A stretch of DNA of 49,758 nt from Clostridia bacterium (lineage in GTDB: Bacteria; Bacillota; Clostridia; Oscillospirales; Acutalibacteraceae). This document shows, in pieces, positions 30,317-31,264 of this stretch. The first letter of the stretch is position 1. The number at the start of each line of letters is the position of its first letter. The translations under genes and the position numbers were made by a program. The stretch covers positions 1 through 49,758 of the forward strand of contig JAFSDL010000022.1 in the NCBI GenBank assembly GCA_017436285.1, given 5' to 3'. Below the pieces are notes generated by a model, which made no database searches, was not told the DNA's origin, and saw only the letters and a list, made by a program, of their open reading frames with translations.

Positions 30317-30329
30317 AACCATATAAATA

Positions 30330-30369
30330 AAAGCAGTTCCCGAGAGGTTTGCCCCTCGGGAACTGCTTT
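30330..30369 (+). terminator. Strong Rho-independent terminator
   Basis: 15-bp arms at 30330-30344 and 30355-30369 (core GCAGTTCCCGAG) with a 10-base loop, followed by TTTC. It closes the HD/phosphatase unit and insulates the region that follows. Confidence 0.9.
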
Positions 30370-30504
30370 TTCAATCAAACAACAGATTCAGTATATCATA
30401 TATCATTTGCTTTGTCAATAATTTAACAAAAGTTTTGTTGTTCAAAGTGACAAATTCTCTGTTTTAAATAAACAAAAACTGTGAACTTTATACAAAATTA
30501 CATA

Positions 30505-30533
30505 TTGCAAAACCTGGATTTCCGTGCTATTAT
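30505..30533 (+). promoter_or_regulatory. Promoter of the candidate noncoding RNA
   Basis: TTGCAA (30505-30510), exactly 17 bases, TATTAT (30528-30533). No protein gene starts downstream within 790 bases, so the transcript it makes (from about 30540) is the purine-rich region that ends in terminators. Confidence 0.7.
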
Positions 30534-30828
30534 ATAGACAAAGAAAGGGTGAGTCCAATGTACAACTAAAAACCTGATTTCAATAGAAAGTGTGGTTCCG
30601 ATGTACAAATAAAAAACCTAATCTTAAAATTTAAAAGAAAGGAAAGGTAAACTCCAATGTTCCGGTGAAAGACCTACGGTTCGGGGAAAAAGAGTTCACA
30701 GGAAAAGAACCGAAAGACTGAAAGCTTCATATAATGAAAATTATTTCAAACAAAAGGGTTTCTCACTTACGAGAATTAATATAGATACGTATAAAAAAGA
30801 GTGTGTTTGGAAATAGGGTTCGTAAAAG

Positions 30829-30903
30829 ATGAGGTCAGAGGTCTTAAGCAATGAAAGAGAGGTAAATAAAAAGATGTTAGATATTAAAATAGAACAGAAA
30901 TAA
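30829..30903 (+). other. Possible 24-residue ORF at the end of the noncoding-RNA candidate
   Basis: ATG 30829 to TAA 30901-30903 would encode MRSEVLSNERE... (24 residues), its stop touching the first base pairs of the 3' hairpin. The ribosome site (AGGG 12 bases upstream) is poor and the Lys/Glu-rich composition is what purine-rich DNA gives by chance, so I list it only as a possibility. Confidence 0.2.
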
Positions 30904-30972
30904 CCCTCGACGGGGATGTGACGAGAAAGCATCGGTCGAGGGTTATTTCAATTTTATTTTAATTATTTGTTT

Positions 30973-30995
30973 CATCGCATAGGCGATGTTTTTTT
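30973..30995 (+). terminator. Rho-independent terminator of the candidate RNA
   Basis: CATCGC (30973-30978), loop ATAG, GCGATG (30983-30988), then seven T. A compact canonical terminator. Confidence 0.85.
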
Positions 30996-31086
30996 ATTAT
31001 ACGCTTATTGATATATTTTCTATTTTGGAGTTTATGCATCAACTGCGCAAAAGTTTATAACACAAATATAAATTATTTCATTCTAT

Positions 31087-31177
31087 GGCACAGGCAAGCC
31101 AGTGCCTTACGGGTGTATTGTTTTAAGTAATTTTGTCCGGTAGAGTAATAACCGTAAGGTATAGGCTTGCCTATACC
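31087..31177. repeat. REPIN-like pair of inverted palindromes
   Basis: Right copy on plus strand: GTAA (31154-31157) directly before a 20-base palindrome (31158-31177, GGTATAGGC-TT-GCCTATACC). Left copy in inverse orientation: 20-base palindrome 31087-31106 followed by TTAC (31107-31110). The stems differ in sequence but stay paired (GGCAC/GTGCC against GGTAT/ATACC). The same format (GTAR, GG, four variable bases, GKC, TT loop) occurs at 49263-49337. A short tetranucleotide plus hairpin in inverted pairs is the REP/REPIN layout moved by RAYT transposases. Confidence 0.75.
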
Positions 31178-31264
31178 CAAGGATACAGTTGATTGGTGCA
31201 TTTCTATATTCTGAACCACAAAATATGCAAATTCATTTTTTCAACTTTTTATTTCTGCTATAAC

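Follow-up and report, generated by a model that had tools for sequence, protein, structure and literature searches.

The window, that is the whole stretch of 49,758 nucleotides of Clostridia DNA analysed here, carries an intergenic unit whose neighbours are phosphatase-type and HD-domain proteins, an arabinofuranosidase and an MFS transporter. Comparison of relatives gives the layout of this unit as a promoter with upstream boxes and a divergent promoter, followed by minigenes, a variable middle, a last open reading frame (ORF) and a terminator that shares the stop codon of this ORF. The individual features are as follows.

30329..30370, minus strand: terminator hairpin downstream of the divergent promoter, from a terminator scan
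30390..30418, minus strand: divergent promoter TTGACA-17-TATACT, match 11/12, with a predicted start near GTTG; seen in relatives
30452..30504, plus strand: upstream boxes TTCTCTGTTTTAAATAA ... ACTTTATACAAAATTACATA, conserved in relatives, candidate regulator site
30505..30533, plus strand: promoter TTGCAA-17-TATTAT with TG before the -10 (-35 at 30505-30510, -10 at 30528-30533), conserved in relatives
30542..30569, plus strand: minigene 1, strong SD AGAAAGGGTGAGTCC and ATG TAC AAC TAA (30558-30569), from SD and ORF scan
30585..30612, plus strand: minigene 2, SD AGAAAGTGTGGTTCC and ATG TAC AAA TAA (30601-30612), from SD and ORF scan and the repeat
30639..30668, plus strand: minigene 3, SD and ATG TTC CGG TGA (30657-30668), from SD and ORF scan and the repeat
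30669..30852, plus strand: variable middle, 184 nt (14 to 449 nt in relatives), per-clade folds covary only in part
30760..30775, plus strand: CUU-loop hairpin TTCTC-ACTTAC-GAGAA, recurs in relatives with different stems, suggestive only
30853..30903, plus strand: terminal minigene, SD GAAAGAGAGG and ORF MLDIKIEQK with stop (30874-30903), conserved in relatives
30897..30957, plus strand: main intrinsic terminator, stem 30897-30911 with 30935-30949 and a T-rich tail, stop codon in the 5' arm, from covariation
30973..30996, plus strand: second terminator, hairpin and T run, from a terminator scan

An inverted-repeat element that adjoins the unit (31060-31200) is a dispersed repeat: counting itself, it has 62 matches in the genome, and ~17 of these approach full length.

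An earlier note on this DNA had described a unit that runs from promoter to terminator without a credible gene. A promoter, a hairpin with a T run and repeats are indeed present, but the conserved terminator is the one at 30897-30949, and the hairpin at 30973-30996 is a second one 3' of it. The internal repeats and hairpins were found again as a purine-rich stretch with hairpins and three copies of a 31-nt direct repeat (at 30542, 30585 and 30641; copies 2 and 3 have 84% and 65% identity to the first). The lack of a credible gene has to be revised, as the stretch holds three 3-codon ORFs and one 9-codon ORF, each behind a strong SD-like site. The unit is in part supported as a predicted conserved RNA with start-stop minigenes and a terminal micropeptide ORF, so that its description as lacking a protein is only half right. 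The upstream terminator that was said to insulate the unit (30370-30329) exists, but it sits just downstream of a strong opposite-strand promoter (30418-30390) and belongs to a divergent unit.

The promoter matches the consensus at 9/12 positions, and the region has 16 promoter-like sites versus a mean of 10.8 (sd 3.5) in shuffles; taken alone, this match is no evidence. The promoter is credible because it is conserved in relatives together with ~60 bases upstream of it, and it predicts a transcript start near 30539-30541. The conserved upstream boxes are possibly a regulator site. A regulon reading was rejected, since box B occurs just once in the window's incomplete genome at up to 3 mismatches.

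The divergent promoter scores at least 10/12 in 76 of 84 relative regions (4/84 in the other-strand control), a GTTG-like start is found in 65/84 (control 1/84), and a strict terminator lies within 70 nt of the divergent promoter in 31/84 (control 7/84). A very short divergent RNA with a GTTGGG-like start is predicted beside most units, with an immediate terminator in part of them. By visual inspection, GUUGG in the divergent RNA might pair with CCAAU at the start codons.

At its 5' end, the predicted transcript would start a few bases 5' of a purine stretch complementary to the 16S tail, and most units share the minigene pattern of a strong 16S-tail complement, an ATG, usually two codons and a stop. 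The tail itself (GGATCACCTCCTTTCT) was seen in one of the 40 relatives searched, a genome of the same order, and was not found in the window's incomplete genome. The unit has the elements that define start-stop minigenes (SD, ATG, 0-3 codons, stop) and, with the start placed from the promoter and the 16S tail taken from one same-order relative, also the 16S-tail complement near the transcript start that defines a STAB-SD.

To place the leaders in relatives, a promoter matrix was derived from 26 sequences of other loci, with exact unit repeats removed; the training and test loci share close relatives. Among the 62 units scored by this matrix, 51 reach at least 15. Their first ORF has at most four codons in 44/51 when the search begins 3 nt before the matrix end, and in 46/51, with three lacking an ATG, when it begins 5 nt after the matrix end; the control ATGs inside the middles open ORFs of this size in 58/242 cases. 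The unfiltered SD energy of the first ATGs has a median of -13.0 kcal/mol (n=48) versus -3.6 for internal ATGs. A value of -9.35 kcal/mol was obtained for 214 long ORFs of the window and the named loci, each at the best ATG within 40 codons; the minigene energies set against these ORFs were prefiltered at -9 kcal/mol or below, the -13.0 median being the unfiltered version.

The number of 5' minigenes per unit among 98 distinct units is none in 12, one in 68, two in 10, three in 3 and four in 5. Some of the 12 units without a 5' minigene lie at contig edges, and others, such as L068, L071 and L081, have a promoter and no start-stop ORF. The inner codons of the minigenes vary, with AAC AGG, TAC AGG and TAC AAG the commonest, and short length and TAA stops prevail: 91 of 117 minigenes have three sense codons including the ATG, and 104 end in TAA. 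Their short length is partly set by selection, because these 117 were chosen at an energy of -9 or below and at most four codons, with five short ORF sequences struck out by hand.

At the 3' end, the terminal ORF of the relatives follows a strong SD (GAAAGAGAGG or close to it) and has the core M(x)LDxK, most often as MLDIKSEQK with a stop. Its frame is kept across ATG, GTG and TTG starts and all three stops. ATG with LD is kept in 52 of 55 distinct copies (R1 covariance model, described below, at least 59 bits), among which L004-L019 are genus BLAST loci and in some cases the same DNA as model members. The other three were found in frame by eye, one with a GTG start (L141) and two with a TTG start and EP instead of LD (L146 and L147). 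Many codon changes in this ORF are synonymous (Leu TTA/TTG/CTA/CTG, Lys AAA/AAG, Ile ATT/ATC), and the Asp codon is GAT in all 51 tabulated ORFs; the search pattern behind this table favours Leu codons and misses two ORFs with EP for LD.

The stop codon lies at the base of the terminator stem, at an offset of -5 to -3 in 34 of the 55 copies. Together with the next three bases it is perfectly complemented downstream in 83 of 97 copies (TAA in 48, TGA in 31 and TAG in 4), the complement being absent or less full in the remaining 14. In an alignment of 39 sequences, 99.0% of the cells of the terminator stem pair and 14 of the 15 pairs change on both sides; none of 500 shuffles gave covariation as high.

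The middle is poorly kept in sequence and length and often A-rich in relatives; the conserved parts of the unit are the promoter region, ribosome-binding sites, tiny ORFs and terminator. The unit strand folds better than 100 shuffles (z -4.8), and the opposite strand folds nearly as well (z -4.5), as expected from long inverted repeats. The CUU-loop hairpin was found in 26 of 81 middles (shuffles mean 4.2, maximum 10; reverse strand 15/81). Folds made per clade contain pairs that change on both sides in five groups (7/39, 2/42, 1/25, 16/53 and 4/17) and none in three, and a single consensus fold was not obtained across these eight groups; structure in the middle is likely but not proven. In a few very short units (L069, L099, L070 and L139) the middle has 14-39 nt, and the minigene almost abuts the terminal ORF.

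By BLAST, the unit is present in 18 of 22 genomes of the same genus, one of them (G004) with a 20-base match only. The exact pattern of the 3' part gave 42 stretches in the genome collection. These come from metagenome-assembled genomes (MAGs), many of them of ruminant-gut origin, whose titles read Clostridia bacterium or Oscillospiraceae bacterium, and from one record of Candidatus Limivicinus faecipullorum, a member of the class Clostridia. Thirty-nine of these exact-pattern sequences went into R1, a covariance model of the 3' part; conservation inside the pattern is biased, because the sequences were picked by it. The counts that follow include the window's own genome. R1 has a match in 30/300 genomes of the family sample at E<=0.001. 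In the order sample, 50/295 genomes have a match at E<=0.01 and 43 still do at E<=1e-6; in the class sample these figures are 15/245 and 12. Among 398 phylum genomes a single one is matched (E<=0.001), the window's own; the phylum sample, which contains some genomes of the class, serves as the negative control. Genera with a match number 32 of 149 in the order sample (E<=0.01) and 16 of 135 in the family sample (E<=0.001), and the unit thus extends to many genera outside this strain. A family-level BLAST result of 47/300 consists mostly of short matches and was not taken as a count.

The window's genome has one copy of the unit by BLAST, a second match being the hairpin's own complement, and R1 gives elsewhere in this genome a weak partial match of 37 bits. 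Some loci hold two or three units. Five loci (L061, L073, L077, L100 and L101) have two or three copies of the 3' module each, and in L061 three promoters were found, one per copy. A phage, plasmid or viral origin was rejected, as blastn of the window's unit against phages and plasmids and a search of viral contigs with the exact 3'-part pattern gave no match, searches in which diverged copies could be missed.

Sequence comparison supports the unit as conserved and absent from Rfam. The earlier suggestion that it matches no known RNA family stands: Rfam gives no match in the window at the gathering threshold, and ARAGORN finds no tmRNA gene there. In a permissive search the best match to the unit is SpF19, at 32 bits versus a gathering score of 60, and such low-threshold matches sit on the 3' module. 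Membership in ROOL, GOLLD, raiA, OLE, HEARO or 6S was rejected, as none of these covariance models matches in the window or in 17 relative loci, where the Rfam scan returned nothing but one tRNA. The proposal of a ROOL-, GOLLD- or raiA-like RNA or a new family holds for a new conserved family, but not for a large ornate RNA of the ROOL/GOLLD type, given the poorly conserved middle; the homologues expected in related genomes are many and their terminator stem covaries, but the middle folds covary only in part. Among the matches listed from Rfam 15 and open-licence papers, we found no described family with this anatomy, and five terminal-peptide strings are absent from open-licence paper texts. 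Judging from excerpts of two large structured-RNA searches (PMC11109978 and PMC8040213), an unnamed motif there may overlap the unit.

The surroundings of the unit differ among loci. Neighbours elsewhere include patatin, amino-acid decarboxylase, RACo, MFS and VTT proteins; those tested are unrelated to one another, and the largest neighbour family is found in 7 of 43 sources. More than one neighbour is common to loci L060, L063, L065, L092, L093 and L094, which may reflect common descent. Based on uncurated ORFs, the first downstream ORF of at least 80 aa has the same orientation in 18 of 37 units, the opposite one in 18 and is missing in one, and ORFs of at least 150 aa split into 12 same and 14 opposite. 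There is no fixed co-oriented downstream gene such as characterizes a leader-peptide attenuator, and the equal occurrence of both orientations argues for action in trans. An association with defence systems was rejected, since 0 of 10 neighbouring proteins scanned match PADLOC models.

The reading that we tentatively prefer, with somewhat less than an even chance of being correct, is that of a new family of free-standing bacterial RNA bracketed by minigenes, which would probably be trans-acting and ribosome-protected. Judged by the order of elements in the sequence comparison, the promoter would put the RNA start right at a strong SD. Ribosomes would thereby be loaded at the very start of the RNA; as every minigene ORF ends at once, they would stay bound or re-initiate on the same site, where they may shield the 5' end from 5'-3' decay and could not run through and unfold the RNA body. 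At the 3' end, the last ORF would likewise attract a ribosome that does not pass through the terminator, and the RNA body might then act in trans. Excerpts of PMC8708949, PMC4113751 and PMC7509114 indicate that ribosomes at an SD or minigene can protect RNA from decay, and those of PMC8708949 that strong-SD minigenes permit re-initiation without release. Since a stabilising SD need not drive translation, as excerpts of PMC4113751 state for the cry3A STAB-SD, the start-stop ORFs may do more than stabilise. As counterpoints, the terminal peptide shows more conservation than a role as ribosome anchor alone would require, structure in the middle is weakly supported with the opposite strand folding almost as well, and 12 of the 98 units have no 5' minigene, some despite a promoter. 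Loading of ribosomes might make the RNA stable, store or titrate ribosomes, or yield the terminal peptide. That the unit is a regulated RNA serving as a dock, whose long 16S-tail complements and start-stop ORFs keep ribosomes parked or cycling on an RNA that is not a messenger, is possible though rather unlikely; if true, it would mean ribosome storage, damping of translation, or an RNA body carried on the ribosome.

Two-codon minigenes such as lambda bar lower translation in E. coli, and by analogy the unit could be a ribosome or tRNA trap, whose minigenes, once the RNA is made, would lower translation by keeping ribosomes cycling between initiation and termination or by releasing short peptidyl-tRNAs. 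We regard this as unlikely. The very strong SDs, the short ORFs with mostly TAA stops and often AGG or AAG as last codon, their number of up to four per unit, the loci with two or three units and the conserved upstream boxes, which suggest regulation, are all in line with a trap, and according to excerpts of PMC8708949 strong SD, shortness and UAA raise minigene toxicity. However, 68 of the 98 units have one 5' minigene only, the last codons are not of one kind, and a trap leaves the conserved 3' ORF and the middle unexplained. The same excerpts describe a minigene with toxic features that acted in cis and left growth uninhibited when induced, an argument against taking toxicity for granted.

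The unit might instead be a micropeptide gene, the product being a peptide of 8-10 residues, M(x)LDxK..EQK, with minigenes and middle only regulating its mRNA. The many synonymous codon changes, the variation of the start among ATG, GTG and TTG and the use of all three stops would fit such a gene, but this reading offers no easy account of the 14 to 449 nt that separate minigenes and ORF, and the invariant GAT for Asp (51/51, with the selection of the table noted above) hints at a constraint at the RNA level; this explanation appears quite unlikely. A cis-acting leader or attenuator, in which a ribosome at the last stop codon melts the terminator for a downstream gene, would account for the stop codon at the stem base (offset -5 to -3 in 34/55 copies) and is nevertheless very improbable in view of the split orientation of downstream ORFs (18 same, 18 opposite, one none among 37 units), the unrelated neighbours and the second terminator of the window's unit.

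Under the preferred reading of a free-standing, ribosome-protected RNA, the unit would be an example, open to experiment, of an RNA that uses ribosomes within its own machinery. Its most constrained parts are ribosome-landing sites and immediate stops, which blurs the line between coding and noncoding. The host group comprises gut Clostridia known largely from metagenomes, Rfam has no model for the unit, and its ORFs are too short for ordinary gene finding to pick up.

The closest likeness to known systems is in individual parts. Lambda bar, a two-codon minigene, shares with the unit an SD, an ATG, one or few codons and a stop, and ribosome binding there affects RNA stability or translation. 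Both likenesses extend to axe-txe mg2 and EHEC ler, as described in excerpts of PMC8708949. These minigenes belong to transcripts of ordinary genes, either in the leader or internally, whereas those of the unit start and bracket a free-standing RNA, sometimes in series. STAB-SD and polypurine 5' stabilisers likewise have an SD-like 5' sequence able to pair with the 16S tail, as excerpts report for cry3A (PMC4113751), SP82 and gsiB (PMC7509114). In the unit, by contrast, a start-stop ORF follows the SD, and an ordinary protein gene is absent from the RNA. ROOL, GOLLD, raiA and OLE are RNAs from intergenic regions of Firmicutes and relatives, and the unit is likewise intergenic, but it differs from them in lacking a covariance-model match and in having a poorly conserved middle and conserved tiny ORFs. 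Dual-function small RNAs such as SgrS/SgrT act as RNA and carry a small ORF, as the unit also does in carrying one; the unit differs in having minigenes at one end and, at the other, an ORF merged with the terminator.
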